DNA of 64,000 nt, taken from assembly GCA_015345905.1 (NCBI GenBank), contig JADDTR010000023.1, forward strand, positions 310,001-374,000. The letters run 5' to 3'. A program made the position numbers and the translations under genes. This stretch comes from Aotearoamyces nothofagi (Eukaryota > Ascomycota > Leotiomycetes > Leotiales > Tympanidaceae). Every line of letters begins with the position of its first letter. Within the stretch, counting starts at the first letter, position 1. The notes below the pieces were generated by a model. It was not told where the DNA came from, did no database searches, and worked only from the letters and a program-made list of their open reading frames with translations. Shown in pieces: positions 240 to 22,900 of this stretch.

Positions 240-1721
240 TCAAGCCAGTCCATTGACAGGAGTATCAAGCTTCCTCTTCTTGAGGGTCAAGTCGTCCTGG
301 GAATTGACAACCATATCCTCCGACATTTCTGTAACTGGGACATCTGGTCCAGCAGTGACAACTTCATTTCCAGAGACTTCGGGGAATGGTGTCAGAACTT
401 TGGTAATATCACCCCACCATTGCTCGCCGAACTCCTTGTACCATTTGACAGTGGTAGCAAGACCAGTCTCGAAGGGAGTCTTCTGTTCCCAGCCGAGCCT
501 TCTCAGCTTGCTACCATCAACAGCATAACGCCTGTCGTTGAAAGGACGGTCGTGGGTGTGCTTGATCCACTTATGGAGCTCCTCTTGGGTTGCATGGGGG
601 ATTTCAAGGTATGTGAGCAACTTGGAGCAAAGGTTTAGGTTGGCAATCTCGTCGTATGACCCGACATTGTAGATTTGCCCGATTTGTCCCTTGTGGAGGA
701 TAGTATCAAATGCATCTGCTGCATCACCGGCATACAGATAACGTCTAGTAGGGGAACCGTCACCATGGAGAACCAGAGGTTGTCCACGGTTCAGCAGGCA
801 GGTGAATTTGGGGATGACCTCTTTTATCCAAGTCAGTAAACTCTCAATGTAAAAACCGAGCTAGACTTACTCTCAGGGAATTGATGGGGACCGTAGACAT
901 TGTTGCTTCGCACAATAATGACTGGGAGCTTGAAACTCTTCTGGTATGAGTGAACCAGCATCTCAGCGGCGGCCTTGGATGCAGCATATGGGTTGGTTGG
1001 TGCCAGAATACTGGTCTCGAGCAAGTCATCTTCGTCATCCTCAACCTCTCCGTAGACCTCATCAGTGGAGATGTGGATAAATCTCTTGATTTGGACCTTC
1101 TTGGCGCTCTCCAACAGAACGTGGGTACCATAGACGTTTGTGTGGGTGAAGCCGTAAGAGTTGCCGAAACTCAAATCGACGTGGGATTGAGCAGCGAAAT
1201 GGAAAATAGTATCGATATTGTAGCGCTCAAGGCAGTCCATCACCTCGGCGGGGTTGGTAATGTCACCATGGTAGAAGCTGAAATTCCGCTTCTCATTCAG
1301 GGCTCTCGTGTTGTTCAGAGACGCACAGTAGTCCAACTTGTCAAAAGAAACAATGTTGTACGCGTCAGGGTAAGTGACAGTCAAGTGTCGTACAAGCCAG
1401 CACGCACTGTTTGCCCAAGAAGCCGTCAGTTGCGAACTTTTGCCAGGCCCTGAGGCTAAAATTGCACAGGGAGACGTACATAAAACCAGCACCACCAGTA
1501 ATCATGATATTATTCACATCAGGCAATGGCTCGAACTTTGTTGACCCGGTCAAAATGGGGGCCTTCTTCCAGATACCGAAATCCTCGAAGAATTTGGTAT
1601 GGTCGCCATTCTGAGCAGCTACACCGACAATGTCGTGTCAGCAAACAAACTGAAAGATTCGCAGGGCGTGGTGGAGAGAGGGAGGGTACGTACCAGCGGG
1701 GGTTCTTGTGTAGGTAGTCAT
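240..1721 (-). CDS. UDP-glucose 4,6-dehydratase (UDP-rhamnose pathway)
   Basis: Short-chain dehydratase predicted to convert UDP-glucose to UDP-4-keto-6-deoxyglucose, the first step of UDP-rhamnose synthesis in fungi and plants; probably cytosolic. I read four exons: 1721-1694, 1618-1480, 1406-871 and 820-240, with introns of 75, 73 and 50 nt. They give 427 aa, a normal size for a single-domain fungal dehydratase. The Rossmann motif GGAGFI (about residues 51-56) is only restored by splicing intron 2. Further on are STDEVYG (the Asp-Glu pair typical of 4,6-dehydratases), the catalytic YAASK and the NNVYGPHQFPEK block. The C-terminus carries the RRYAVDGSKLRRLGW segment usual in the dTDP-/UDP-glucose dehydratases. 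The partner 3,5-epimerase/4-reductase is not in this window. Neighbouring genes to the right are a sugar-transporter-like protein and putative glycosyltransferases, which fits nucleotide-sugar supply. The family is clear; the exact sugar product is inferred. Confidence 0.93.
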
Positions 1722-2083
1722 CTTGAAGGGATTCTACAGCGCGATTGACTGAAAATTTGGGAAACAGGAACAATTTCAATCTGATGGGATTGTCGTGATA
1801 GATAAGTAGAAATGAACACGGGTTAGGAGGGGTGGTTCCCAATAGCTTGGATTTTCGTAATTAAATCGAGCGCGCCGCAGATTACGCGGTACGAAATTGG
1901 GGTTAGGGGGTTACGAGACGGGCTCACCAGGCACGCCAATGCGAATGCTGGGCAAGCCAAGAAACCTATTAGGCACTCGACCAGTGGTTACAGTACTTGG
2001 GCGTCCTGTACACTACAGTACACAGGATCTCCCTCGTACAGACTTAGTGTACATGGGCGGCAAGTCCGACTTGGTATCATTGG

Positions 2084-2147
2084 CATTGGCATTAACATTA
2101 GCCCATTAACATTAACATATTAACATTAACCCATTAACCCATTAACC
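2084..2147. repeat. CATTAAC-type minisatellite
   Basis: Degenerate tandem copies of CATTAAC / CCATTAAC with a 6-9 nt period. The unit differs from the fungal telomere repeat TTAGGG, so this is not called an interstitial telomere. Confidence 0.7.
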
Positions 2148-4129
2148 TGCTACTCCCGTATATTATTCCCATCCCCTCTATCCCGCACTCCAGAGGCTGA
2201 AGCAAGGCTTGACTCCCTGGATTACTGCAGTCGTCACCGTTCCTCGCCTCGCACCCTCTGCCATGCGCTCCTTGGCCTCCTCCACAGGGCGCCTAACGGC
2301 GGACCTGGCGCCGTCAAGTCTATTATTACGAGGGCATTTGGACTATATTCGCTGCACTCGGGCAACCCCTCCCAGGACTGAGGCGTCTGCAAGGTGCGAG
2401 GTACAGTACAGCACATGCCGTACGGGGCATGGCAGACGGCGCCGGTACAGGTCTGTGAGGGAGGACATGAGTGAGACGAGGGGGCTCCAGGAGGGAAAAA
2501 GCCAGATTTTTAGGAGACAGAGTTGCCTAATTAGGCAACGCCGTATCACGGGACCACCGCGCCCGATCCTCATCTACCGGATCGGAATGCGAATGCTTGT
2601 AGGAGGGGCGATAGTGCCCATCGACTGCTTGGTTGTGGCCCCTGAGCGAGTCGTCTCGTCGGCCTCTGTCTCCCTACAGTAAGTCAGTAACTCGTAACTC
2701 GCAAATCCCCAAATAACACCCCTACCTTAGCCAAACGCAAGGGAAGCTAAGGGAGGGAGGAAGCTATTGTGCCCTAGGTGGATGGGCAATAGTGGGCAGT
2801 AGTGGGCAGTAGCGGGCGCTGGCGGGCGCTGGCGGGCGTGCCTCGGGTGAGCCACAGCGATCAAGCGCCCAGCTGGCGTGTCCGGTACTGCAGCGTAGTG
2901 TGCTGTAGGGCGCTGTAGGGCATTGTCGGGCGCTGGGCTACTACTGGGGGCTGCTGTAGGGTACTGTGGTCTGCCTACCGCAGTACCACAGAAGGCCCAG
3001 AGGCCGTGTGGAGTCTACGGACTGAAAAACGCACCAAAGATCGCTATGCTGCTAGGTATTGCTGCTACTACTGCTAGTACTGCTACTGCCACGCTGCCAG
3101 CTTGCTGTCGAGGGTTCTCCAAAGGCCCAGTCCAGTCCAGTCCAGTCCATCACAGCACAGCACATTACATGCAGTGTTGTAGTATGGGTGCGAGCGCTGG
3201 GAGCTGCGTATGCACTGTACAGTGCATCGCGGTACTACAGCTTGGTACAGACAGGCCACTTCTGGGAATTCACGGGTTCTCTCTCGGCGACGGGTCGCCG
3301 CACGGTACTGCCCTGCAAGTACCCATTCAAACTCAATCGAGCCGTTGAATAATCTGATTAATTCTCGAAGATCAAACAATCCATGGCCGGTGCCACCAAT
3401 TGCCATGTCGGATATGATGACATAATGGACTGTACAGCATGTTTGAAATATAGGGGGCGATGCATCACCAAGACGTCCTTTGGAGCGCGTCATCTCTGCC
3501 CTCCCTAGGTAATGCTGGGGGTCCTCAGATGCGCCAAGAATGAAACCGGACAGCCGTTATGGGCTCTGTTCAGGGCCGTCGAGGCCATCATCCTGGCGCG
3601 GGTAGGCACAGACATACACTACCGCGTACAGCCGCGTACAGCCTACAGCGTGCATCCTGCATCCTGCAGCGTTCAGTGTCCAGCGTGTCAGGATGCCAGT
3701 GTGTCCGCTGTCCAGCGCCCGCGTTCAGTGCTGTAGGGCGCTGGTGAAGTGAAGGTGGCCGGCCATGCCCCGCCCGCACCACGCTGCCGTAAGCGTCAGC
3801 CTGCAAATCCCCCCTCCCATCCGCGTCCACACCCATATCCGCATCCGCATCCACATCCACATCCACACCCGCCCCCCCGTTCCCCTGCCTTCCTCTTCTG
3901 CCCTGTCGGTCGCTCGCATTGCACTTCCACTTGCTGCAGATCCAAATATTACGCTACACCCGCTGCTGACTAGTCTCGCCCTTTTATCGTCATCCAATCA
4001 CCACTGGCCATCCCTCCTTCCAAGACCCCAATATTATTTCCGAACGCGCGACGCAGCACAAGGCGATCGATCGCTCAACGCAATCCCTTAACATTGAATC
4101 CAAGCTCGCGACTCTCCCTCCACGCCAGA

Positions 4130-4245
4130 TCGTGGAATGCTCTAACCCCAGTCCTTCTCGACCATCAAGGCGTCTCTTCTTCCTTCTTTCTTCATTCCTG
4201 GCCCTGGCCTTTTGAACGTTCGTGTATATTACCTAAATCAACAAG
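4130..4245 (+). promoter_or_regulatory. pyrimidine-rich promoter/5' leader of the DMT transporter
   Basis: A CT-rich stretch (CTTCTTCCTTCTTTCTTC and similar, about 4168-4193) directly precedes the start codon at 4246, and a CCAAT pentamer lies near 3994. CT-rich leaders are common in filamentous ascomycete promoters. The exact transcription start is not visible. Confidence 0.4.
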
Positions 4246-5652
4246 ATGGCGGACCGCGGAGACCATGCTGCTAAGTCCAGCTCTGAAGCCGAAAGCTACG
4301 ACCTGGAGAAGATGTCGCCCGCCTTGAGCTCTCACGATGGCAGGAAGACTCCCGAGGAGATGGATATTGGTGATGATGTCGAGAGAGCTGAGTTGTTACC
4401 AGCTATTGCCGCTGAGAAGCCTGCGGAACCTGCAAAGGCAACAGTCAGAGCGGCAGTGATTTGGATGGTGGTGAACACCTTAGCAACAATTGGCATTGTA
4501 TGTACCTTCACTCCATTGCGCATCTATTCGTCTTGGTATCCGACTGACTTGCTCTTTCTCAGGTCTTCACCAACAAGGCCATCTTCTCGGACCCTTCTCT
4601 CAAGCTCGCCCAGCTCAGCTTTGCGTCCTTCCACTTCTTCGTAACATGGCTCACGCTCTTTACGCTTTCGCGACCAAGATTTGCGATGTTCGTACCTCGC
4701 CGTGTCGCTATCAAGGAGATTCTCCCTCTTGCAGTTGCGATGTCGTTGAACGTCATCCTACCCAATCTTTCGCTTGCCTTCTCTTCCGTTACCTTTTACC
4801 AAGTTGCACGAATTCTCCTCACTCCTGTTGTGGCGCTCATGAACTACTTTCTCTACAAGGCTACCCTTCCTCGAAAGGCGATATACGCTCTTATCCCAGC
4901 ATGTGCTGGTGTCGGCATTGTCTCATACTACGACAGTCTACCAGTCGCTGATGCCACTGTCAAGACCACAAGTGGACTGGGTGTCTTCTTTGCATTCTCC
5001 GGAATTTTCGCAAGCTCTCTATACACTGTCTGGATTTCTAGCTACCATAAGAAGCTACAGATGAACAGCATGCAACTTCTCTTCAACCAAGCCCCAGTCA
5101 GCGCATTTATGCTACTTTACGTTATTCCATTTGTGGACACATTCCCAGTCTGGTCGGAAGTACCACTCAACAGATGGCTCATGATAATGATGGTATGTAA
5201 ATTCTGTCCCCTTGTTTTTTCTCTATATTCTCGTATTATGACTTGTCGTGATCGTGATGGCGGCGCCACACCTAAATTCGTAATACGAGCGTAAATTTAG
5301 AATTGCAGGAAGGCTGACATAATTATTGCAGAGTGGATGTTTCGCCTGCCTAATCAACATGTCACAATTTTTCATCATTGCACAAACTGGTCCCGTATCA
5401 AGTACGGTTGTTGGTCATCTAAAGACTTGCTCAATTGTTGCCCTTGGATGGTTGACTAGTGGAAGAGCTGTTGGTGACAAGAGTGTTATTGGTGTCATAA
5501 TTGCCATTGGAGGAATCATCTCGTAAGTTTAATCCATTCACATGATATTATGTTTAGCCTCTGCTCTCTATAACACCAACTAACTAATTCATAGATACTC
5601 CATCGTTATGCTGAAGCACAAAGCTGCTCAAGCAGCCGGTATCAAGCCATAA
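4246..5652 (+). CDS. DMT-superfamily TPT/SLC35E-like nucleotide-sugar or phosphate-sugar transporter
   Basis: Multi-pass membrane protein of the triose-phosphate/nucleotide-sugar translocator branch of the drug/metabolite transporters, probably in Golgi or ER membrane. Exons 4246-4497, 4563-5192, 5332-5522 and 5595-5652 give 376 aa, typical for the family. A hydrophilic N-terminal tail of about 65 residues is followed by roughly ten hydrophobic segments. The TPT-type features SLAFSSVTFYQVARILLTPVVA (middle) and a late GPVSSTVVGHLKTCSIV segment (about residues 310-326) are present. The C-terminus is a short lysine-containing tail (KHKAAQAAGIKP) facing the cytosol by analogy. It sits between a nucleotide-sugar enzyme and four glycosyltransferase-like genes, which suggests, but does not show, a nucleotide-sugar substrate. 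Introns have canonical GT/AG ends; intron 2 contains a CTGAC branch-like site. Confidence 0.88.
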
Positions 5653-7069
5653 GCATGCCATTCTCTTCCTCCTTACTTGATCGCTCTTTTAGCCATGTCT
5701 TGGAACCGGATAGGCAACAAGGAGATTTTATAGCTAGGGTTCCCTTCACATACTGAACTCTCCAACGCATCCCTCCCTCATTTACGAGTAACAATACCGC
5801 ACGCGCGACCGTTAGCTTTAGCGATACCTACCATGTTTTTCAAAAGCCCGGCAGGGCCCCCTAGATCCTTGGTATTTAAGTATGAATCAAACAAGTTCAG
5901 CCTATTCGGTCTTGATCGTATCTGCCTGCTCATTTTGATTCTTGATTTATTCCCCCACTTTTTGTGGTTTGTGGTGGTCGGGTGGCATTCCTGGCGTTGG
6001 TGGAGAAGGCCGTTTCTTTTGTGCTCTTTTTTTGTGGTTTTTGTAACTGAAGAAAAAATTTGCACGGGATGGGATGAGATGGGATGTCTTTTTTGGACTG
6101 TATTTTAGAAGAATAGAGAATCTACTACCTTTTGAGATTTTTCTTTCCTAGTGTTTGAGGACGGGAATGTTCCAGTTGATTTAGCTCGAGTGATTGCTGT
6201 GCTTTTATTCAAACCTTTCTTCATTGGTTGTTTGGTTCTGTGTATATAGTTGAGACAGAGACAGATACAGAGAGAGAGAGGGGGGGGGGAGAGAGAGAGA
6301 GAGAGAGAGAGAGTGTGTGTGTGTGGATCGGCAGAAAGGGAAACAGAAACAGAAACAAGTTACAACAGAAACAAGTTACAACAGAAATCGGACTTCTGCA
6401 GAGTCTCCTTGTGGCATTTCAGTTCGAGATGACAAGGGAAAGGAAGGAAGCTACACAAACATGCCCGAGCATAGACGATATTCAATATTTAATATTCAAT
6501 ACCATACCATACCATACCTTACTCGAGACCTCAGGCGAAGAAGTACGGGATATATCACGTTCCCTCTAAAGAGACAAAAGAGAGAACGTCTCTGGTTTAA
6601 TTCACTTCAGCTCACTTCAGTCAAGATCCAGTTGAACAAACATGACTATAAATTTCATATACCAAGGCCTGCTTTTGCCCAGAAAGAACAAAAACTCCCC
6701 TGCCAAAACGCCTAGCCGGCAAAGCGACCGCTGTCCTCGGCTTGGGAACCGTTTGGATGCGGGACTGAACAAGTACAATACATTGAAACAAAAGGTCATC
6801 GAGAGAAAACAAAGCCCCTCTTCTCTTCATGAGTCTCGTTCTCGCATAACGCTGAGTAGCGCCTGAAAAGGTCAACCATGTTATTATATCATGTCATGCC
6901 ATACCATTCTAAGCCACTGTCATAACCCCCGTCTGGATACCCCGCTCCGGTGCTCTTAAGAGTGCGCGCACGGATAGCGTAAGAAGGACGCAAGAATGAA
7001 AGAAATGCAAGAATGCAAGATTCTACCGAGTCGTTCTTTTAACAAATAGATAGATGGATGAACTATGCA
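5653..7069. other. convergent intergenic region with GA/GT microsatellite
   Basis: Lies between two converging genes and should hold both 3' UTRs. It is AT- to purine-rich, with a compound microsatellite and a 17-nt ACAAGTTACAACAGAAA duplication near 6353-6387. No coding signal was seen. Confidence 0.55.
6270..6325. repeat. compound (GA)n-G9-(GA)n-(GT)n microsatellite
   Basis: Uninterrupted GA dinucleotides, a run of nine or so Gs, more GA, then GT repeats. Confidence 0.9.
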
Positions 7070-8404
7070 TCACCAAGGAGCGAGATTTGAAGGAAGGTAT
7101 GGATACCCATTCTCATCAACAACATCCTCATCCCAGCCCATAGCAACGCCATAACTGGGTCCACCGACAATCTCCTCCTCTCCGATTCCGCGTTTCCAAT
7201 GAGTGTTACACGTCCCCGGGACATATTCCGCCGCGTCCATTGCAAACGTCATCTTGACTTCAGGGCAGTAATCCCAGATGTGTTTGCGCATCTCCGGAGT
7301 GCCCCAGATGCCGCTGTGGAGGGTTGTACCACTGCCACCCGTGTGGTAGCCCATGGGCTCGTAGAAACCGTCGCGCCAATTATCGATGCCTTTGACGTAG
7401 GCGTTGTCTGTTGCGATTGAATCAATGCCGCCTCCTGCGGGTTTCTTCGTTTTCTCACCTGAGCCTTTCTTATCTGATTTAATCTTTTCCGCCTTGCCAC
7501 TATACATCTCTCCAGAAAAGGTCAGTGATGCCGTGCCGTTGGCCAGTTTGGCGTTGGGGCGGTGACCCAGACGTTCTGTGAGCCAGACATCTTCTGGCTC
7601 GGTATTATCGATACGCTGTTGGTTCCGTAGTACGTCCAGAATAGCTGACACTCGGCGCAGAGAGAGTCCACCATTACCGCCGAACCGCCCAATTGGGTTC
7701 CACGGTGCGCCGACCCAGTCATATTCGAGCCACTCGTTGATACTCTGCCGTGAGTTGGCGCATAAGATGCTGTCCGTTTGGAAAACCAGTAGCCATTCCG
7801 CTGGTTGTAAAACCTGCTCGTAGAGCCATAAGTTTGTAAGAAATCTACTAATCATTTCTTGCCCAGCAGTAGACATATTGGAAGGAATATAAGTCAAGTC
7901 AAGCTTGCCTATCTCGACCTGATTTCGGATCGCCAGGGAGGAGTTGATAGATTTGACTGATTCGGCACTACCCATGAATCGGAAACGCCAATCTGGAGGA
8001 ACAACCCCCATGAAATGTAAGAGAAGAGGTGCGAGGATAGGATTCGGCCTATTTTCGATGAGGAGGGCGACTTTCGACTGGTTAAAGGGAGAGGTATGGA
8101 CTCCGTAGTCGAGGTAGAGTTTAGGTAATTCGGATTGTTGAGGTTGCCATAACGAAATGACAACAAGACTGCAAATGAATATATCAGTATTGCCTCTTAC
8201 AAAGCGGTCCAACGAATTGAATACGCACGTGAATATTATCATGCCGCCAGCGGCGCGCATGCGTCGACTCGTCTTCCCCCAGATAACCAGGGCGGCGGTT
8301 TTGGTCCAAATGAAGACATCTCCTATGACGGTTTTCGTCTGCTCAAAGGCATCTTCGACACTCCAGTCGCCCGCCGCAGCGGCGTCCTTCGCTGGCGATG
8401 ACAT
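7070..8404 (-). CDS. DUF5672 type II membrane glycosyltransferase-like protein (paralogue A)
   Basis: Putative Golgi glycosyltransferase of the DUF5672 family; donor and acceptor are unknown. Two exons, 8404-8229 and 8168-7070, give 424 aa. The 60-nt intron has GTGCGT...TTTGCAG borders, contains no stop and keeps frame, so an unspliced reading also stays open. Removing it joins GGMIIFT to LVVISLW and creates one continuous membrane helix at about residues 54-66, the expected signal anchor. The lumenal domain has VALLIENRP, VVPPDWRFRFMGS, a DxD-like FQTDSILCANS and EYDWVGAPW followed by GGNGGLSLRRVSAI. It ends with FYEPMGYHTGG and WDYCPEVKM. A lysine/glycine-rich insert lies between GEMYSG and DNAYVKG. 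It resembles paralogue C more than B. No other gene lies within 1.4 kb downstream or 3.6 kb upstream. Confidence 0.85.
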   Translation of the reverse strand: MSSPAKDAAAAGDWSVEDAFEQTKTVIGDVFIWTKTAALVIWGKTSRRMRAAGGMIIFTCVFNSLDRFVRGNTDIFICSLVVISLWQPQQSELPKLYLDYGVHTSPFNQSKVALLIENRPNPILAPLLLHFMGVVPPDWRFRFMGSAESVKSINSSLAIRNQVEIGKLDLTYIPSNMSTAGQEMISRFLTNLWLYEQVLQPAEWLLVFQTDSILCANSRQSINEWLEYDWVGAPWNPIGRFGGNGGLSLRRVSAILDVLRNQQRIDNTEPEDVWLTERLGHRPNAKLANGTASLTFSGEMYSGKAEKIKSDKKGSGEKTKKPAGGGIDSIATDNAYVKGIDNWRDGFYEPMGYHTGGSGTTLHSGIWGTPEMRKHIWDYCPEVKMTFAMDAAEYVPGTCNTHWKRGIGEEEIVGGPSYGVAMGWDEDVVDENGYPYLPSNLAPW

Positions 8405-11400
8405 TGCGTTGATCTATCACAGCGACGTTGAGAGGTGAGATTTCTTGGAATACATGCTAAGGGAGCAGCTGGGCTAAGTTGGCCTGAGGCATATTATCTG
8501 AACAAGCGGCTAGAAGGCTGCGAGGTATAAACGAGGGCAAAAGCAAATGCGGCACATGTAGTACCTGATTAAGCAGTAATTGGAGAGAATATCAGGCATA
8601 GCGCTGTCACTGAGCAGGTTTCTTCCGGTGTCCACGTGTGCGGGTTCGATTTCTGCTGGCGGCTCAACATGACTGAGGTTGGGGGCATAGACTTTTCCGT
8701 ATTTGAACACTGGGACATAAACTAAGCATAAAAGCTCTCCTAGATAGAATGCCTCGTTGACAAATGGGGCAATAAAGTGGTTTTAAGGTTGGCGTCAGGG
8801 ATAATATAATAATCCACGAGGCCGGGCTAGGATGCAGACAGAACTTCGGGGAGAGGGGAGGGGGTTGGAAGCCTGGAACAAGACGTCTGGCTGCAGGCTG
8901 CAGGCCGCAAGGACTCCGAGAGGAGTGCCTGCAATGTGTTGCAACCCTTAAGGAAAGGGTTAAGGAAAGGGGGGGTTATCTGGCTACACTTCTGACTACC
9001 GGAGATTCGCAGCGGTGCAAGGAGCAATCGTTAAGCTTTGTTCCATTGTGGATACCGCGACAGGCGCTGTGTAGCCTACCGGGCCTACTAGCTGGCAACG
9101 GATTAATAGCAAGTCAAGGTGGAAATTGTCCGCAAGGCAAGGCATTGATTGTTCTTGATGTGGCGAGTAAGGAGTCCTCAAACAGTGTCGTGTCTACATT
9201 TCGTCGGTTCATATTACCTTGGGACAGAGGATATGGTGAAATACCTTTGCATCCTCTGCCCGCCAGATACCGAGCTCCCTTAGCTGTACGTACTGACTGT
9301 ACTGTATCTAGATGGGTGGTATTGCTGGTCTTGCTTTCTTTCTTGCGACTTAGCACGATCGATGTCTCTGACGCCGGAAGGCTACCCTCGAATACTGAAT
9401 ATCCCAGAGAGGATGTGTGGATGTGTTTACCGTGGTGATAAATTCCCGATCGGCTCTGTAAGGGGCCGCTATCAGTATCTGTGCCCCGGAAGGTCCTGTA
9501 CAGTACTGTACTGTGCACGTTTCTTAGACCCTAGTCCGAGGATGGGTCCTTTATGGAATTGCTCTGTCGCCCGGCCAAGACGCGTAGAGTCCGTTTCACA
9601 TTTAGGCGCGGAGATCGTTCGTTTGCCTTGTACAGTACCGTACAGTATGTATTGTGAAGGGAGAGGCCTGGGCGAGAGATCCACTGTCGGTCAACCACCA
9701 CGTCACTGTCTCCTCGCTACAGTGCTTAGATCCCATCAGCAAATGAAACGGAGCTGATTCTGCATATCAATTCCTCCAATTCTTCTCCACAGTGCTAAGT
9801 GTCAGAACATCCTGACGATCACATTCATAGATTTGACAGCATTCTTTGATTCGAAAGTCCGGAGTCCTCGTTGTCTTGCGTGGACAACGCGTCCGTCTCA
9901 GGGGGGTGAGGGGTTTGAGACGACAAAATATGCGCCTGTGCTGTAGAGTGTAGTAGCACCTTAATTATTTATACGTACAGTACAGAATATTACTGTCTAG
10001 AATAGGGAGGAGGAAGGTGCTTGACTGCATACGCGGACATCCATCCAGTGGAATGAGGAGAGGCGGATGCAGAATCCAGGCCATGGGAATCCCTCTAACG
10101 TAGGCCATTGTCGCAGCTAGAACATGTTCCAGCCACAAATGCCCTCTCGGGCCAGCAAACATCAAATACATCAAAATACTAACCCTGAAGCCATGAGACA
10201 GAATACAGTAAATGAGTAAATTCCTCGTGCTTCCTCCTAATGGCGAGTTTTACAGGCCTTTAGCCCTGCCATTTCGCTCCCAGGTTTGGGCCGCCTCGGG
10301 ACTGACAGGGCCCCGAAGACGCAGAGGGCATTGGTAACATGATTGCTTGGTAGATCGACAAATAGAGTCGGCAGTGGCTTGTGGGTGGCAGGAGAAAGCT
10401 GGTAGCGACCCGAAATGCCTTGAACCCGACTACTCTACTTTCCGATTGCGCAGGTACGTACAATAGGTGATTCGAGATTTGATGGCTACCGACATAGCTG
10501 CCAACAGGGTTCTAGCATGCTGCTACCGCTACTGCCAGGGTAGTCTGTACGCCGGGCTCGCCACTGAGCGTTACTTATCAGCTTACGACGATGTAGCTAG
10601 CGGAGATACTACCATCCCTAACGAAGAATGCAGTCCCATGACAGGTAGTAAACAAGCACCGTTGCCAGCCAGAGAGAAATGCTGTGGTGTGAAAAGTCGG
10701 CAATGCAATCATTGCAGTCGGTGCAAACCATGGGCATTTGAGCCCTGCTTTCGTCCACTGAGAATGGTATGTTAGCGGAGATCAGACCTGACAATGTCGC
10801 GGATTCCAGTGTGTGCTTCCAGCGCCATAGCGGGAAGTATCTAGGATGGTATAGACTGCTAGGAATAGCAAGTAGCTAGCCGCTGTGCCTCGGGTATGTA
10901 TGTTCTCTGTACTGTACTATACACGCGCGTCCCATGCGTGGACGTCGGAACGAACAGGATCGAAGCTGTACTAACTAGTGATCATTCGACGCCTCGAACT
11001 GAAGCTGAAGCACGAAATAATCAGTAGCCACTCCTCAGACATGGGTAGAAGTAAAGATATCGACAGCATACCTTGCGTTATTATACATATATCTATACTG
11101 TAGCACTGTGGCTCAGATTGCATGTCGTTGCCGGCCGCCAGCCGTCAGCCGTCAGCCGTCAGCCGCTCAGTGACGAGTAAGTGCATGCCTCAATTATAGT
11201 ACAGCGGTCCTGCGCAGCGAACGGTATGGAGATGTGATGTTGCCGGGAGGCGCAACTCGCGAGCCTGGCGTCAATGGCACTTCGCCTGTGCAGGGCCTGC
11301 TCGCCTCCACAGCCCGAAACTCAGCCGGACCCCCGACGCCGTCATTTTCCTAACCCTCTTTCTCTCTCTTACCGTCATATCAAAAACACGAAAGACAAGA

Positions 11401-12036
11401 AGAGACTGCCTAGGCGCAGGTATCGAACAATAGCGTATTTGCGTACGCCTCTCTCCTCCCCTCGCCTCGGGGCCATGGGCTGGCCATACTGCAATCCTCC
11501 TCTCCGGTGACTGTCAGCGTCCCATTCCCACATCAATACGTGCTATCTCAAGCTATGTACGGTACACCTATATGTACATCCGGTACAGCTCCCATCCTGC
11601 ATCCTAGTCGCTGATCTTGATGAACTACATTCCAATCCAGGGATGGCCCCTTCTATACCAGCCAAGCTCGAAAAGGGTATGTATATTCCGTTTTCAGTTT
11701 ACCCTCCGGCCGGATGGAGTGATCCACTTCTACTAAAAGGACGGTAAGTGCGTGATATGTCCGATCAATATGATCGTCCATGTCTATCCATCCCATCCCA
11801 GCTGTGAACCATCCTTGTTCGTTTGTGCACTTGCGATCTGGTACATCTGGATTCTTGGAGTAACAAACACCTGTTCTTCTTTGCCGACCTTGTTATTGTC
11901 GTCGTCAACGTAGTAGAAGGGAAGCAGAGTAAACTATCGTAGGGAGATCTTTAAGGATATCATTTCTTAGGATCGAGATCGAGGTTCGGGTAGGTCTATC
12001 TTATATATCTTTTCGAGAGGAGAGATACAGGTAGCC
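8405..12036. other. 3.6-kb intergenic region between divergent DUF5672 genes
   Basis: No convincing gene. Small open frames lack splice-consistent extensions or known motifs. The stretch is marked by many short palindromes built from GTAC (GTACAG, CTGTAC, GTACTGTAC) near 9490, 9630, 9975, 10905 and 11560, and by a GCCGTCA minisatellite near 11138-11165. The right end (about 11940-12036) should contain the promoter of paralogue B. Confidence 0.55.
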
Positions 12037-13121
12037 ATGCCTCCAGGGAAACCTGACGATCGCAAATCGCGCAACATCGTCTTTGCCGCCCTCCTCGTCC
12101 TAATCCTCATCTATGTCGTGAAATTCAGCTTCCCGCAACACACTGTGCAAAGCGCCATCTCGAATCAGATCCATAGCAGCAAAAACGCCCCAGCAGAAGC
12201 CGCGCTCGTAGGAGAGGCATTGGCAGCAACTACGACAGCCTCACCTACAACGACTTCGGTGGCTGTTCAACATGCACAACCGACGGCACCGCTGAACCAG
12301 GATGGGCCATGGAATGGCACAATCTATGACAAAGTCGCCGTCATTATTGAGGATCGCCCACGGACGAATCTCATCCCATTGATCCTTCATTTCAGCTCCG
12401 TTCTTGGCCCAAGCTGGCCCATAGTCGTCTATACATCCTCCGAAAATGTCGGCGTCTTCGCAACCTCAGCAGCCCTCGGGCGATATCTAAAAGCCGGGAT
12501 CGTCTCGATCCGCATCCTGCCTTCGACGGTGCTTTTCACGAATTCCGATTCAGTGTCAGCGTTCTTAACGAAGCCGTGGCTATGGGAGAATTTGGCGCCT
12601 GCAACCCATATTCTAATGTTTCAGTCGGATAGCATGCTGTGCTCGAATGCGGCGCGGAGCGTCGAGGATTTTTTCGAATATGATTTTGTGGGTGCCCCGA
12701 TTGCGTCACATTTAGGCGCAGGGATGAATGGCGGGTTGAGTTTGAGGAAGAGGGAGAGGTTCTTAAGTATTACGAATGAGTGGGATTGGGAAACTGATAA
12801 GGGGAGTAGATTTGAGGATAGGTGGTTTTTTGATCGGTAAGTCATGATTGTCTTCTTCTATCCTACGAATACCTTGCTGATACCTCGTTCTCTAGATTAT
12901 GGGAGATTGTCGAGCGCGAAAAAACAGCTGGAATCGAAGACGGTGTCAAGATGCCCTCTCTAGAAGTCGCCCGCACGTTCTCAGTTGAAACGATCGATTT
13001 CCCTCATCCGCTCGGTGTACACCAGGTCCATCGCTGGCTCGGCGAGCAGATGGTTAGTTTGGATGAATGGTGTCCGGAGTGGAAGCTATGCTCTGGAGAG
13101 TTTGTGCAGGACACGCAATGA
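12037..13121 (+). CDS. DUF5672 type II membrane glycosyltransferase-like protein (paralogue B)
   Basis: Second DUF5672 member, 341 aa from exons 12037-12836 and 12896-13121. The 59-nt intron (GTAAGT...CTCTAG) removes a TAA that directly follows the first open frame. The protein starts MPPGKPDD, then has a signal anchor at about residues 14-31 and a Ser/Thr/Ala-rich stem to about residue 90. The domain begins at VAVIIEDRPRTNLIPLILHF and carries the DxD-like FQSDSMLCSNA, EYDFVGAPI and GMNGGLSLRKRERFL. The tail FPHPLGVHQVHRWL corresponds to the MGYH region of the other copies. It is clearly more diverged from A and C than they are from each other: the strict GNGG is MNGG and the intron position differs. 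Likely a Golgi enzyme acting on an unknown glycan. The context of other glycan genes supports this. Confidence 0.85.
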
Positions 13122-14163
13122 TTGCTTTGAGCGCTTAAATGAGACCCTTTTTCTGTTGAGAAGGATGACGATTACTGAGGGACCAAAAGTCGAAAAGAAG
13201 AAAAGAAAAAGCAAAGCGTGCCCGGCGAATGAATTGTTTAGCATAGAAGGAAAGGGAGGTTAAACAGGATTTTTGAAATTCCTGTCATTGAACTGCTCTC
13301 CTGGGCTGTTATAGGAGTTTATGCGTTTATCCAGGGTTGGCTGCATAGCTTGTTGGAAGTTTTTTTTATATACATATCGTGGCGCGCTGGTGATGGGAGC
13401 TAATGAGGGGAGTTGATGGTGGTGATGGATCTTTTTGGGGCGATTACTGAGAGGGGTGTGAGTGAGGAAGAGCAAGTTGAGCTGAGTAAGCTAGATGGAG
13501 TTGAGCAAGAGAAAGAGATATCCATGAATTGAATCAAATCAAATGAAACCCCAGGTGTCTCTATCTGACAAAGCGATACGATACATCTTTAAAAAAAAAT
13601 TTGACGAGGCGTAGTAATGCCTTGGCGGGAGACGCGAAATAGGCCATGGCTATGATGACGAAATAAGAGTCGGAAGACAATAGCTGTATGTATAAACAAT
13701 ATTTCATAAATTTAAAATTCAATGGAGTTTTGCTTGTAGCGCGATATAGTACAGGGCACAGCATATTACATACAGTATAGTATCACAATTGTTCGTCCAA
13801 GCTTGAGCTTGGGCTTTATGGCTTACAGCTTAGAGGACGGCCCGTCTTTTAATGACATCTATACTTGTTGTAAATGCTACGCTATGGTATATACACTACG
13901 CTGTGTCGTACAGCGCCAGGAAACGCCTTGGATTCCGAGTAGAAAGTCAAAATATCGCCACAAAAAAGCCAGCCAGCCGAAAAATAAAAAGGCTGAGGAT
14001 AGAAATTGAAATGCTGACATCGACACCGACACCGTTACTGACGCCGCTGGCTCCGCTGATATGCTGGGATTGAAAAAAGAGACAGGGGAAAAAAAGGAAA
14101 TCTCTAGTCATGCTATGCAAATGGGGTCGAAAGTATCTCAAGCAACCAAGTAACTGAGCATGC
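13122..14163. other. convergent intergenic region
   Basis: About 1 kb between converging genes, AT-leaning, with no coding signal. It should contain the 3' UTRs of paralogue B and of the RgpF-like gene. Confidence 0.5.
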
Positions 14164-15751
14164 TCATCCACAGACGTCATAACTATCATAACCCATCCCA
14201 TCATGCCATTCCGTCAACCGATCAAGCACCGTATCCTCAATATGTCTATGGCTTTTCATAAACAGATTCTCGTACGGATGAACAAAGCTCCCGAAATAGC
14301 TGCCGGGTCCAAGCCAGTCCTCCTCATGACAATGTTTCCAGAAATCGCCGGGTACGTCGTGGACGGCTTCTGTGCTTGCTGATGAGGAAGAGGGGTTTTC
14401 GGTTTCTCTGGTTTCAGCGCCCTTCTCGTCGCCTTCGTTGGCAAACTCTCCCTTCATTGCTGCGCGGCGTGCTTGTCTTGTAGCTTTATCTTGGCTATGA
14501 TAGACAGTCAAAAAGACATCAACATCATACCCAGCTTTTCTGATAACCCGAGTTGTTCTAATCTCCCCTCTCTGAGCCAATGGCATATCATCGAAGCATT
14601 CTGAGATGCCTTCAGGGGTAAGGATATGTGAAAGGCCGATGGCATCGGTTGCCCAGATCATGGATTGGACGTGGCCGAGGCCTGAATGGCAGTTGTAGGA
14701 CATGCCGACGAGTTTGACCTTAGGGGATACTTTGTCGAGGTAGGCATCGCTCCAGCAGGTTTTACTCCAGGTAGGGACGAAGGGACCGCGGATGGAGGCA
14801 TTCATGAGGATATAGCGCTTGTAGCGGTCTTTGAGAGGTTTGGCACTGTTCTTGACTTCATTGTTGTCTCGCTTTCTCTCGGGCTCTTTGGTCGTCTCCT
14901 TTTCTACGTCTCTAGTGTCGGCATCGGACCCTGAGTCGCCGGATTCTTGCGGAACGCCTTCTGGCGCAGGGACGGCTCCATTGATATCAAACCAGCCTTC
15001 GCCTCCAACGATACTGTTTAGAACTTCGGCGTGAGCTCCGAGATCAAAGCAGGTGTTGTTACGCCTTTTAATCAGGATATTGGTCTTGTTGCGTCGAGGT
15101 TTCAGGTCGTCGTCCTCGTCTGCTTCTTTAAAGATAATCGTGCTATCAACGTCCGTCTCGCCATTGAGAATGAAGATGAAATCGGCTGCGTCATGAAGAC
15201 CATGGTCGACGAAAAATTGAAGATTGGGCCGTGCAAATTCGGACTCGTAATACACGTATGTGATCAGTGGGCGGTCTTTGGTTGGTTTTTCTAACTTAGT
15301 TTCTGAAACTGCTTCAGGTTCCGCTACTAGGCATTGTGGACATTCGGGAGCTGTGATGCCAAGGTTTGCGCACGCCGAGGTGAGATCAAGTTCATTGACA
15401 GGCTTAATTGGTGTATCAGGCCCGGCTTCATAGAGCTCATTGCTGGGATTGCCGACTAAAGAAGAGGGGTCATCGTGGTCCCATGCTGAAGCTGGAATGA
15501 TATCACCCGGGAGGAAAGTCGTTGCTACTGCTAGAGCAGGTTGCACTGCTGTTACTTTGTCGGTGCTTTGAGTTAGTTGTTCTGATATAGTTTTGGTGAT
15601 GGCTGAAGCTGATATATCCTGCGTCTATTAGATCAAGCCATCGAAGTGTGGAGCGGCAACATACGGATGTATGAAAGAGGGTCCACAAAACAATTATAGC
15701 CACAATAGTGCTGAGGCAGATTGACCTCGAGGATGTGGTGGAAAGAACCAT
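14164..15751 (-). CDS. type II membrane glycosyltransferase-like protein, RgpF-like motif order
   Basis: Exons 15751-15665 and 15618-14164 give 513 aa; the intron is only 46 nt (GTATGT...ACGCAG). The start is chosen because it gives a short basic tail and a signal anchor (about residues 9-27, LSTIVAIIVLWTLFHTS). The lumenal core begins at LITYVYYES (about residue 145). Its motif order is FFVDHGLHDAADFIFILNGE, RRNNTCFDLGAHAEVL, YKRYILMNASIRGPFVP, CWSDAYL, VKLVGMSYNC, HVQSMIWATD and HPYENLFMKS. This matches, from memory, the order in bacterial rhamnan synthesis protein F domains: R-N-x-G-x-D-G, then N-x-S-x-x-G-P, then HxQS. The family is widespread in fungi but uncharacterised as far as I know. 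Two acidic or Ser-rich low-complexity inserts interrupt the core, one before the RYKRYILMN motif and one after QDKATRQARR. Function is inferred. Confidence 0.75.
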
Positions 15752-17567
15752 GATTCGCTTTATCTCAAACTCACTGCAGGACAAGACGGAAACAGTCAAG
15801 CAGAAGAAACCAGAGAGGTGAAGATGGAAAAAGAAATCGAGTGATGATGATGAAATATAGGTAGATAGTGATCGTCTACTCTCAAACTTCAGCGCCCCAC
15901 TCCAGGAAGAGCGTAGCAAGACAAGCAAGACAAGCAATAAACTGGATCCAGATCCAAGGGCTATAGGAGCACGGCCATTTCGAGGCATGAGAGCAGCCTT
16001 CATAAGTCAAACAATGGCAATCATAAGACCCACCGGCAGATGAGGGCAGTCAGCCAGTTAAAAGGCGACGGTGTACGAAAGCCTGCGACAACGGACAGCG
16101 TCTCCATAGGGAGAATGGGGATGGGAATTGAAAATCCGAGATATATCTCGAACAGGCGCGCCATGGCATGGACGAGAGAGGAATAGCCGACGTGGAAAAC
16201 CGGGGAATAGCAGGTGAGAAGCCTTCGTGGAGGCCCGGACTTACGTACCCAAGCACCACCAAGGTCGCCAACCACGGGCAGCTCGGCGTCCCTGACGACA
16301 CACCTGCACAGGCTTGAGGGCAGCGTGGGAAGGACTGCGTGCCGACACTGCCATTTCTGAATATTTCTGAGAGCACGGAATCGGGCCCTTACGTGGGTTG
16401 TCTTGCATGAAGCTCGGACTCGACGTGGATGCCCTGAATCATGTTTGATCATGATAGTCATGTTGCACAGCCAGCATCCATGTTGTACAGTAGAGTAGAG
16501 AACACGTACGCACGCAGACAGGGTTGAGGCATGGGGAGATACTGTGTGTGCGAGGTGGAGGTATCAGATCGACGAGGAAGATTGCTGCAGCCTCGATGCT
16601 GAGGCGCGCAGACACACGCCGAAAGGGTAACACCACAAGTACTACTGTATTTAGCTAGCTGTGTATTTAGCTTGAGCGGGTATTTATGTCCAGCGCAGGG
16701 TATTTCGCAAGGAATGACGGGCTCCGGGCGAGGGCCCGGAGGATTTGCGCCCAGGCGCCGCAGGGAGGGCCGGGGAGGGCCAGGGAGTGCGTACTGCCTG
16801 GTACAGCACAGTACGTGGCCGTGGCGGTGGCCGTGGCGGGCAGCGCGGGCAGCGCTGCACAGGATTCGTAAGCCCTACAGGCTTCAGGCTACAGCGCAGG
16901 CTACAGGCTACAGGCGGCCTTAGCACAGGGTCCACGGCTACTGGAGGTAGGCGCTGGGGCTCGCCGCGGCTCTTCTTCCCTTCCTGCGCTGGCGGGCGGG
17001 CGGACTGGCTGGCACGCTGGCTCCCTAGCCACCGGAGCGCTACAGGCACTTACTGCCTGTGGTTAACGTGCTACAGTCAGGTAGGTGCACTGTCCTGTGC
17101 TGTGCTGTGCTGTGCTGTGCTGTGCTGTGCTGTGCGGTACATACGTACTGTAGCCAGCCACCTGTAGCCACTGTGGCCACCCTACCTTCTCGTTTCCTAG
17201 GTACAAGCCTTCCTAGCCCCGGCCCCCGTTAATCAGTTCAACGAGCCGTTCTGCGTAGCGCTCTAATCTCACTACCAGCCTGTGCCTCTCTTCGCCCTGC
17301 TGCTGCTACACCTCCTACGGCCCAGACTCCCTCACTCTTGGTCGCCGACGCCATGAAAGATAATTATCACCTCTTCCCAGCCTCATATCAGCCGACCCTT
17401 CAACCACAACTCTACTCTGCTCGCGACAGTCAATCCCCCGCCGCGCTGTTCTCATGCTTTCTTGACAGCATCTCCGGCCTTCATCGTCCCTATCACTTTG
17501 GCGCATGGGCTACTGATCGCCCTCTGACCTGGGATTAAGAAGGGCAAGCATCGCATCGTCTTGCGAA
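15752..17567. other. divergent intergenic region
   Basis: About 1.8 kb containing the promoters of the RgpF-like gene and of paralogue C. GC-rich open frames near 16670-17170 are overlapping on both strands and repeat-driven, so no gene is called. GTAC palindromes occur near 16480 and 16800. Confidence 0.5.
17095..17136. repeat. (TGTGC)n pentanucleotide microsatellite
   Basis: About eight uninterrupted copies of TGTGC. Confidence 0.95.
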
Positions 17568-18736
17568 ATGGTGTCCTTCAACTCCGACCCGCTTGGTGCT
17601 GTGAGCGCACTCTTTGTGCTCAATCGCATCAAGGTCTTCATCGTGATCTCTCTCATTGCAACGTGAGTGCGCACTTCTATCGTGCCGCCTTCTCCGGTCG
17701 CGTGGGCGTGAATGCCGGACTAACAGATGATCCCAGATGGTCGGTTGCACACATAATACCTCGATATCAATCCGATATCCAAGACCGACTGGCATCACAG
17801 CTGGCAAGGACGCGGGAAAAGATCCCTAAAATCAAGATCGATTTCCATCCCAACAAAGATCCGCGAACAGCATATAATTCTACTAAGCTCGCTCTCCTCG
17901 TCGAGGGACGGCCGATTCCACATCTCGTTCCGCAGATCTTACATATGATGACAGTGGTGCCACCCGACTGGCGATTTCTGTTCATCGGTTCAAACGAGAG
18001 CGTGGTCTCCGTGGGTACAAGCTTTGGTATAAAATACCAGCAGGCCGCAGGAAAGCTGGATTTGATGATAGCGCCAAAACCATGGGGCATCGATGATAAA
18101 GAACACGTATGGCGGATGTTGACTGACAGGAGATTCTACAATGAGCTTCTGCCAGGTGTGGAGTGGTTACTGAAGTATGAATCGGATAGTATTATGTGTG
18201 CAAATTCTGGTGATAGCCTGAATGATTGGCTAGACTACGATTGGGCTGGAGCACCAAGGTAACTAATCAGCGTGCTTGATGGAATATTACTATGTATTTT
18301 TAGACGATATACTGATTCGTTCTGCAGATCGCCAAACGATAGATTTGCCGGTAATGGTGGTCTCTCATTAAGACGAGTTTCCGCCATCCAAAGGGTTCTA
18401 TCATTTCAAGAACGCTATAATAACACCATGCCCGAAGACGAATGGTTTGGGAAACGTATAACATCCATGACCGGTCTCAAAATCGCCAACGGTGACCAAG
18501 AAAATCACTTCTCCGTAGAAGAAGTCTGGCACGAAAAGCCAATGGGATACCACGTACGAGAAGGCCAAGGCCACCTTCCTGTGGACGTATGGAAGAACCG
18601 CGAGCAACGCAAGAAGATCTTTGCATACTGTCCCGAGATCACCATGATCATGGACATGAAGCTCGAACGTGAGCGGTGTAACGGAGATGATGGTGAGGGC
18701 AATCTTGTACCACTTCCCGGAGAGAAGATTCCCTGA
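17568..18736 (+). CDS. DUF5672 type II membrane glycosyltransferase-like protein (paralogue C)
   Basis: Third DUF5672 member. Exons 17568-17662, 17737-18258 and 18328-18736 give 341 aa. Intron 1 (74 nt) has a CTAAC branch site near 17720. Splicing to the CCCAG acceptor joins VFIVISLIAT to WSVAHIIP, making one signal anchor at about residues 22-38. This intron is phase 2 and sits inside the anchor helix, as in paralogue A, good evidence of common descent. The domain has LALLVEGRP, VVPPDWRFLFIGS, the DxD-like YESDSIMCANS, DYDWAGAPR and GNGGLSLRRVSAI, then EKPMGYHV and FAYCPEITM. Intron 2 removes a stop immediately after GAPR. It is the last glycan-type gene of the left block; the next gene is the ABCC transporter 1.2 kb away. 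Substrate unknown. Confidence 0.87.
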
Positions 18737-19920: not shown

Positions 19921-22900
19921 CTACTCAACGTCAACCAGTCTGCTTGCTTCATATGCCTTTTTCGCAGCCTTTTGCAGCCCGTCAAAATCTCCGCTCATCT
20001 CACACATTCCTCTGAATATAGCTCCGTCGTCTTCCTTTTTGAGCAATTCATACGGGTGTCCGTACTCCACAACCTCACCTTTGTCCAAAACCAGCACTTT
20101 GTCATAATCGACAATGGTTTGAAGACGATGAGCAATTGTGATGATCGTGCTCTTTAGCTCGCGAATCGTCTCCTGTATCTTATTGTCGGTATTGTAGTCA
20201 ATGGATGCCGTGGCTTCGTCCATCATCAGTACCTTGGGGTTCTTAAGGAGTGCTCTTGCAAGACACAGAAGTTGGCACTGTCCTTGTGATAGGTTGTTGC
20301 CCGATTCTGCAACGGGAGATGATAGGTTGAGGAAGATGTTCTTGTTCGAGGATGTATGTGTAGGTGTCCCAGGCATTGATTCATCGACTGGAGTGGATGG
20401 AACGGTTGTGGAGGTAGCGCCTCCAATCAGTTGCACGCGACGAAGGGCTGTGAAAATATCTTCATCGGTGAACAAGTTGAACGGGTCTAGGTTGCTGCGA
20501 ATAGTACCAGTGAAGAGTGTAGGGTCCTGAGGAACAATAGTGATAGACTCCCGAAGATCTTGAAGACCAATAAGTCCAATATCGACACCATCTATCAAAA
20601 TTTTGCCTTCCTCTGCTTCTAGGCCTCGGAAAAGTGCAAGAGCCAAAGAACTCTTACCAGCACCGGTCCTTCCAACAATACCCACCTTCTCAAGAGAGTT
20701 GATTTTGAAGCTGATTTGCTTCAACACGGGTTGCAGATCACTCCTATAACGTGTCGTGTACCCAATGAACTCGACCGATCCCTGGCTTGGCCAGTTCGCT
20801 GGCGGTCTAGTGTCTTCGATAACTGCTTCAGCTTCTTGCTCAACGTCAAGGTACTCCTTGATACGCTCAACAGAGTTCATGTTTTGCTCATACATTGCGT
20901 AAAGTCGGACTAGCCACAATACGTTTTCTGTGAAACTGATGGCATAACTGAGTGAGAGACCTGCAGATCCTGCGTCGATCTTTCCAATGCCTAGGATAAC
21001 AAACATGCCTGCAAAGAATGCAACTAAGTCTCCGATAAGATCTACACGGAAAGAAAGCCATCTGTTTGCAGCCCAAAGGTAGATGAAAGGCCGATTGTGT
21101 GTGTTGACTCGAAGCATGTTGTCTCTAATAAATCGCTTCTCATCACCATAAGCACGGATCGTGGTAATACCAGTAAGAGTCTCTCCGAACTGCTGGAACA
21201 ATGGACTTCTTTGGACAGATTCCAATCTCTTGAGATCTCTTGAGGATCGGAGATAGAAGCTTCCTACAAAGAAGTACATAACGCTGATTACCATACCGGC
21301 AATAAGGAATCCAGGAGTGATCGAAACGATAAGGACGAGTGTGACAAGGATAGCCAAAGCACAGCCCATTAGACCGATCGCGGCTGGCGCAACTTCTTGA
21401 TCAACCGATTCAAGATCCTTAGAGAATCGATTCATGAGTTGACCGAGCGGTGTTACATCGAAGAACTTAAACTTGGCGCGAGTGACTGCCTTCATGAGTT
21501 TGTTGTGAATAACCCAAGACGCAGTAAGTGATCCATAAAACATCCACATATCTCTGAAAAGAGCCGTAATCATTCCTGCTAGGCCGATTAATGCATATAT
21601 AGTTAGGTAATATCCAACATTAACATCGGGCGAGAAAGTTGCAAGTAGAGACGTTTTGGTAGGATTGAAGTAAGGTGTTAATTTGGCCAATCGTGGACCC
21701 ATTGTAACAAAGGATGTTGACGCCGCGTGAAGTGAGCTGACGGGTGCAATATACGATTCTCTCTCAATATTGTACTGGTTAGCCCACTGTCGAATCCAGA
21801 TGTTGGCACCAAGACCGGATAGTTGTTGGATGGCGAAAACCCCTAGAGCGAGGAACCAGAACCACCACGGGCCCATTGCATTGAGATATAGTGACATGAC
21901 TGATAGCTTAACACCACCAGTGGCCTTGGTCTCGCCCAAGGCATCCTTTTCAGCGCCCGTGTTGGGATCTTTAGGTTTAGTATCCTTGCCACTCGCTGCG
22001 CCGTTCAGTTTACCATTACCAGCCTTGGTTACTCCATTCTGTACAAGGGCAGCTGTGCTTTCATCGCCAATATCTATTGGGACTTGGGAAGGGGTTCGTG
22101 AGACCTTGCCTGAGGCAGTTCCAGATCTAGAAATATCCTCACCAAGCTTGCCAGATGCCATGACTTTCTCTGCTGGACCTTGGATGTCAACCCTACCATT
22201 ATCCAGCACAACAACGTACTGAGAAAATGGCACACATAGAGCAATGTTGTGTGTAACAAGGATACATGTACGGTTAGCCATTAACGGACCCGTTATACAG
22301 TTGTCGAAGATCCATTTGGCAGTGTGTGAGTCGACGGCGCTCAAACAATCGTCAAGAAGAACGTGGCGCGAGTTAGAATAAAGAGCTCTAGCCAACGAGA
22401 TTCGCTGTTTCTGTCCACCAGACAGCGTTATGCCCTTCTCGCCTACGAGGGTCTGATCACCATTATCGAGGATCTCGAGATCACGCTCAAGAGCGCAGGC
22501 GATAATAACGTCCTTATACCGCTTCTCATCCATACGATTTGCGAATAAAATATTCTCCCTGATATTAGCGTTAACAAGCCAAGCCTGTTGTGCACAGTAA
22601 GCCACAGTTTCTGTAAGGCCTGTGTCTGGGTCCGGTTGCACATCTTCACGGCTATAACCTCCAGGTAGATAGACCTCGCCTTTGATCCTTGTCATCTCTC
22701 CCAAAAGAGCCATAAGCAAGGATGTCTTGCCAGATCCGGTTGGTCCTGCAATAATGCTGAGTTTGCCGATGGGAAACTCGATATCAATATCCATTAAACG
22801 GAAAGCTGTCGAGCCTCCGTCTGTAGTGACTTCTTCTCTGCTGCCCCACGAAAATGTTCCCTTTTTGAAACCGATCAACTCATTGCCATCTTCGTCTACG

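Follow-up and report, generated by a model that had tools for sequence, protein, structure and literature searches.

A likely Golgi glycan-assembly neighbourhood in Aotearoamyces nothofagi that places a nucleotide-sugar 4,6-dehydratase beside a carrier and four candidate glycosyltransferases

Introduction

A two-gene pathway to uridine diphosphate (UDP)-rhamnose is known from Botrytis and Verticillium (PMC5698552), and the pathway is placed throughout Ascomycota, with losses (PMC8092308). Two TPT-type carriers are described as important for wall integrity in Magnaporthe (PMC10013753), and a 2026 abstract on Sporothrix states that the attachment of rhamnose to fungal surface glycans "remain[s] poorly understood" (PMC13429783). 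Here we describe a block of six genes from the leotiomycete Aotearoamyces nothofagi, at positions 240-18736 of a stretch of 64,000 nucleotides (the window; contig C23, JADDTR010000023.1, positions 310001-374000) in a genome of 25.48 Mb on 55 contigs. The block consists of a nucleotide-sugar 4,6-dehydratase gene, a nucleotide-sugar-transporter-type gene (the carrier), three genes of the family DUF5672 (D1, D2 and D3) and a fourth candidate transferase gene of an unnamed family that we call RGF. A first-pass annotation, made from the letters of this DNA, had read these genes as one pathway for a rhamnose- or 6-deoxysugar-containing cell-wall or secreted glycan. Our analysis indicates that the block is likely a Golgi glycan-assembly neighbourhood, in which, we infer, rhamnose is a plausible transferred sugar or donor.

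DUF5672 is mentioned once, in a single paper, in the literature that we searched, and Pfam assigns it no function. Among the titles and abstract openings of that literature, outside which most subscription papers lie, we found no report of such a fungal cluster of UDP-rhamnose, transporter and glycosyltransferase genes.

Results

DUF5672 proteins and the GT-A fold

All three DUF5672 proteins score above the 24.4-bit cut-off of PF18922 and belong to the family (Table 1). For D1, the one of the three that was modelled, comparison of the predicted core with the PDB by VIA-align returned the GT-A glycosyltransferase fold in 50 of 50 PDB rows among the matches listed, so that the modelled core matches solved GT-A enzymes. 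UDP-glucose, UDP-glucuronate, a UDP-galactose analogue and UDP-GalNAc appear as ligands in the titles of entries among the closest matches. A search of PDB sequences with the DUF5672 profile gave nothing significant (one match, E 1.6). The D1 model points the same way as the first-pass annotation, which had called these proteins glycosyltransferase-like, and makes a glycosyltransferase role for DUF5672 likely. The annotation had also proposed type II membrane topology, which holds for D2, D3 and RGF, each with a hydrophobic N-terminal anchor, and is doubtful for D1, in which no strong membrane segment is seen at the N-terminus (best 19-residue hydropathy 1.41); the start of D1 may be mis-set, or the protein may be anchored otherwise.

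The genome contains at least six DUF5672 genes, three of them in the block, a count that, like that of four RGF loci, is a lower bound. In the family tree D1, D3 and a copy on contig C10 group together (100/99), with a weak pairing of D1 and D3 (86/40), and D2 falls into another subfamily (98/97). The DUF5672 genes of the block therefore span two old subfamilies and do not form one simple tandem array. Under uniform placement, three of six genes fell within 11.7 kb of 25.5 Mb in 1e-5 of 200,000 draws, and with D1 and D3 merged into a single locus, two of five came that close in 0.9% of draws, both being rough odds, as genomes are not uniform.

A 4,6-dehydratase in the block and a reductase elsewhere

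A glycine-rich NAD site, TDE and YxxxK are the defining motifs of nucleotide-sugar 4,6-dehydratases of the RHM/RmlB type. The spliced dehydratase carries the motifs noticed at first reading, GGAGFI at residue 51, STDEV at 169 and YAASK at 196, and matches the Pfam profile GDP_Man_Dehyd (PF16363), for which it is the highest scorer in the genome; motifs and profile together assign it to this dehydratase family. Its best PDB chain, 6vlo, is named as a putative deoxythymidine diphosphate (dTDP)-D-glucose 4,6-dehydratase. The narrower claim of a UDP-glucose 4,6-dehydratase stands for the family and does not follow, as to UDP-glucose, from the sequence of the enzyme itself, whose nearest NCBIfam model, dTDP-glucose 4,6-dehydratase TIGR01181, gives 335.6 bits, below its cut-off of 365.1. 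The presence in the genome of a putative gene for the 3,5-epimerase/4-reductase NRS/ER speaks for UDP over dTDP in the substrate.

The NRS/ER gene lies on contig C7 at 588310-589149, where two pieces are 62% and 52% identical to the Arabidopsis protein, one of them listed with two internal stops that we took for an intron; the reductase reads ...VYLIWGGEGWVAGHLK.... The annotation had proposed a search for this gene just left of the window, where the adjoining 10 kb, as far as five of its many ORFs show, code other genes; the genome search placed it on C7 only and, with one candidate scored, reported no second NRS/ER locus. The best match to the RmlD profile, on contig C21, was considered as a reductase and rejected, since by eye it is another protein of the RmlD family, presumably MAT2B-like. 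Because the genome has an NRS/ER gene, UDP-rhamnose can probably be made, and its predicted synthesis looks complete in the genome, though not clustered.

The carrier

The carrier belongs to the TPT/nucleotide-sugar transporters by its profile match (PF03151, 33 bits against a cut-off of 30, a thin margin) and by several membrane segments, seen as 5 hydrophobic peaks, so that the first-pass label of a DMT/TPT nucleotide-sugar-transporter-like protein is sustained. Compared with three reference sequences, it is 33% identical to SLC35E3 (133 bits) and 27% identical to both URGT1 (107 bits) and UXT1 (104 bits). As the best match in the genome to URGT1, it was a candidate for a UDP-rhamnose transporter of the URGT type, a claim of substrate that we dropped because SLC35E3 fits better; we know of no cargo for SLC35E3. 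A search of the genome with the carrier's own sequence, in which two candidates were scored, found no second carrier gene. More distant genes of the TPT family lie on contigs C4, C39, C2 and C12, according to a profile search that overlooks intron-split genes, as its list omits the window carrier.

The RGF family

RGF occurs at three or more further loci in the genome (C8, C16 and C23:39k), and four fungal members share 89 invariant columns. Its order of motifs, we assume, resembles that of RgpF, and the annotation had labelled it RgpF-like. This label did not survive comparison with profiles: no Pfam family rose above chance level in the four fungal members and no NCBIfam family did so for the window protein, and PF05045 (RgpF) was unmatched at E up to 1 in the window protein and in two bacterial relatives, and at E up to 10 in the three paralogues. 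Those bacterial relatives were found by direct search in plasmids of Paracoccus marcusii (L082:5785-6774 and L083:5785-6774), and a third record was reached through one of them; they are annotated as hypothetical, and their neighbours in both records are a gene of GT2 type and another two without a name. Fungal and bacterial members have in common the residues Y-Y-E, R-NL, D-G, N-S-RGPF, HVQ and P-E--F-K--R. No relatives were found in viral contigs or genome contigs. The membrane anchor, the neighbours and the conserved polar residues together suggest a transferase role for RGF.

Company of the two families at other loci

Among the loci found, DUF5672 and RGF meet in this block alone, which speaks for a special function of the block. 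Within 20 kb around the three other DUF5672 loci and the three other RGF loci, the six window proteins matched their own family only (tblastn, E 1e-3).

DUF5672 accompanies glycan genes beyond fungi too. We collected the neighbours of viral DUF5672 genes at 19 of 22 loci (L060-L081, omitting L069 and L075 as near-duplicates and L079 as cut short), taking up to two proteins per side of at least 110 amino acids. These 74 proteins include 12 matches to PF13524, six hexapeptide transferases, four Methyltransf_24 and two PF00535 proteins, one each of a pyruvyl transferase, a polysaccharide deacetylase and a GT25 protein, and also phage structural genes. At 14 of the 19 loci one neighbour comes from one and the same family, which has a DxDE motif and is weakly similar to GT2, the label GT2-like reflecting this motif and sub-cut-off matches of two members scanned singly. 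Two viral matches to "Rhamnosyl O-methyltransferase/CmcI" were not taken as a clue to rhamnose; in one case the match is weaker than that to a general methyltransferase. Comparison of the DUF5672 profile with that of the viral GT2-like neighbour gave no similarity (small alignments); the viral alignment A3 comprised 20 of the 22 viral proteins (without L078 and L079).

The DUF5672 profile also has matches in Bacteroides ihuae. A peptide-pattern scan of genome contigs confirmed no DUF5672 protein and was insensitive, given this Bacteroides match; a single viral query found none in plasmids, and phages gave one weak match (E 1e-3).

Gene models, spacers and borders

The six genes are intact and consecutive, with the order and alternating strands originally assigned to them (Table 1). 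We placed exons and introns by eye and then spliced and translated the models, in all of which the reading frame closes. Every one of the 10 introns runs GT..AG with a YTRAY site 11-23 nucleotides upstream of the acceptor, an agreement that is a consistency check and not a blind one, since the introns were chosen by eye. Both the gene structures and the gene content agree with a fungal origin.

Table 1. Genes of the block and its right-hand neighbour, in window coordinates
Feature	Position (exons)	Strand	Evidence
4,6-dehydratase gene, 4 exons, 427 aa	240..1721 (1721-1694, 1618-1480, 1406-871, 820-240)	-	PF16363 233 bits; best PDB chain 6vlo 275.5 bits; motifs; splice sites
TPT/DMT nucleotide-sugar-transporter-type gene, 4 exons, 376 aa	4246..5652 (4246-4497, 4563-5192, 5332-5522, 5595-5652)	+	PF03151 33 bits
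DUF5672 gene D1, single exon, 444 aa	7070..8404	-	PF18922 109 bits; predicted core GT-A fold
DUF5672 gene D2, 2 exons, 341 aa, N-terminal hydrophobic anchor	12037..13121 (12037-12836, 12896-13121)	+	PF18922 114 bits; hydropathy; tree
Fourth protein RGF, 2 exons, 513 aa, N-terminal hydrophobic anchor	14164..15751 (15751-15665, 15618-14164)	-	Unnamed family, no Pfam/NCBIfam family above chance level
DUF5672 gene D3, 3 exons, 341 aa, N-terminal hydrophobic anchor	17568..18736 (17568-17662, 17737-18258, 18328-18736)	+	PF18922 101 bits; hydropathy; tree
ABC transporter, right border, outside block as far as known	19921..24879	-	PF00664/PF00005

That no unrelated gene interrupts the block, as had been claimed, stands as far as tested. 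Ten long open reading frames (ORFs) drawn from three of the inner gaps, of which there are five, gave no Pfam match at E 0.1, and the top codon-bias score in the gaps (the five inner ones and the right one) is 0.022 against 0.029-0.176 in the six genes, the lowest of which, D2, is barely separated from the gaps. Two mainly spacer segments, window 2001-4000 and 16001-18000, have a GC content of 0.57 against about 0.47-0.51 nearby and contain short tandem repeats. To the right, the ABC transporter is followed by genes for a Sec61-type SecY, a porin, a deubiquitinase, an IPP transferase and a kinase. On the other side, in the 10 kb that precede the window, five of the many ORFs were read, by eye or through Pfam, and their products include a lactate/malate dehydrogenase as well as a methyltransferase. 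Farther along the window, an ORF at 58174-58902 (+) encodes an ice-binding-like protein of 242 amino acids (PF11999, 164.7 bits), a possible hint of a cold habitat.

Discussion

Our findings suggest a tentative explanation, which we favour, in which the block carries out glycan assembly in the Golgi with at least one step using rhamnose, supplied as UDP-rhamnose by way of the dehydratase and the C7 reductase. Three of its parts have a footing in sequence or prediction: the family of the dehydratase, that of the transporter and, through the model of D1, the GT-A fold of DUF5672. The dehydratase would form UDP-4-keto-6-deoxyglucose in the cytosol, which the C7 epimerase/reductase would convert to UDP-rhamnose; the carrier would take a UDP-sugar, perhaps UDP-rhamnose, into the Golgi, and there the DUF5672 enzymes and probably RGF would add sugars, rhamnose at least once, to a wall or secreted glycan. 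The original proposal of a rhamnose or 6-deoxysugar block keeps its dehydratase with an adjoining carrier and four putative Golgi transferases, gains the predicted GT-A fold of D1 and a reductase in the genome, and loses a linked reductase, a carrier of the UDP-rhamnose type and the match to RgpF; that any of the transferase candidates uses rhamnose is no more than plausible.

Several observations weigh against a role for rhamnose or against a functional cluster as such. The reductase on C7 is unlinked to the dehydratase on C23, so the rhamnose pathway is not clustered; the strand changes from gene to gene, with long spacers between; of the references compared, SLC35E3 resembles the carrier more than the plant UDP-rhamnose/galactose carrier does; and the RGF profile has no similarity to DUF5672 or to the viral GT2-like neighbour (small alignments). 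The other three DUF5672 and three RGF loci are without a dehydratase or carrier within about 10 kb, and the two families therefore do not need such neighbours. Moreover, Rht1 and Rht2, rhamnosyltransferases known from fungi, have been described as GT-B, not GT-A (PMC12295706), and DUF5672 would therefore be a second, unrelated solution. Some of this evidence also serves a rival that we regard as almost as probable, in which DUF5672 and RGF make up a glycan cluster of their own with another donor, such as UDP-galactose or UDP-glucose, and the dehydratase, perhaps with the carrier, is a chance neighbour. The separation of dehydratase and reductase on different contigs, the absence of a dehydratase near DUF5672 loci elsewhere, the ligands named in the titles of the closest structures and the 2.5 kb, GC-rich spacer with short repeats between dehydratase and carrier all fit such a cluster; what speaks against it is that the genome's top dehydratase-profile gene and a carrier that lacks any close duplicate stand together beside it.

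It is unlikely, by comparison, that local duplication and drift brought the block about by accident, with D1 and D3 as tandem copies and the remainder as unrelated neighbours with separate jobs. Although the grouping of D1 and D3 with the C10 copy would agree with duplication, their pairing within that group is weak, the place of D2 in the other subfamily means that two or more separate lines of DUF5672 came together here, and the chance of about 0.9% under uniform placement does not yet count the fourth gene. Highly improbable is a true RgpF-type rhamnosyltransferase in RGF, by which the block would make a rhamnan-like polymer: the resemblance in motif order noted in the annotation and the GT2 gene adjoining the Paracoccus relatives in two plasmid records would suit it, but PF05045 is unmatched in the four fungal paralogues and two bacterial relatives, and NCBIfam gave nothing above chance in the two proteins scanned.

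The predicted GT-A core and the glycan genes beside DUF5672 in viral contigs give this family a testable job, and should UDP-rhamnose prove to be the donor, candidates for the carrier and the transferases would be at hand in the block. A bolder proposal, which we consider distinctly unlikely, is that the DUF5672 proteins are GT-A fungal Golgi rhamnosyltransferases, separate from the GT-B enzymes Rht1 and Rht2, and that the locus unites the first step of UDP-rhamnose synthesis, an SLC35E3-like Golgi carrier and the transferases; if true, it would provide a cargo for the orphan SLC35E3 group.

Among described systems, DUF5672 is 6-12% identical to the GT-A enzymes LARGE1, glycogenin, GlyE and LgtC and is a Pfam family of its own without an assigned function. 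Rht1 and Rht2 of Sporothrix, which are described as putting rhamnose on fungal glycans or glycolipid and whose silencing lowers rhamnosyltransferase activity (PMC13429783), differ from DUF5672 in the GT-B fold described for them and in their motifs (PMC12295706). RGF is without a profile match to RgpF of rhamnan synthesis, and the carrier shares a superfamily with plant URGT/UXT and animal SLC35E3 at 27-33% identity to the references, with SLC35E3 ahead of both URGT1 and UXT1. The UDP-rhamnose pathway of the Botrytis type offers a likeness in its dehydratase family and in a reductase, present here with 52-62% identity to the plant NRS/ER; in contrast, the two genes lie here on separate contigs, and the dehydratase has a carrier and four transferase-like genes as its neighbours.

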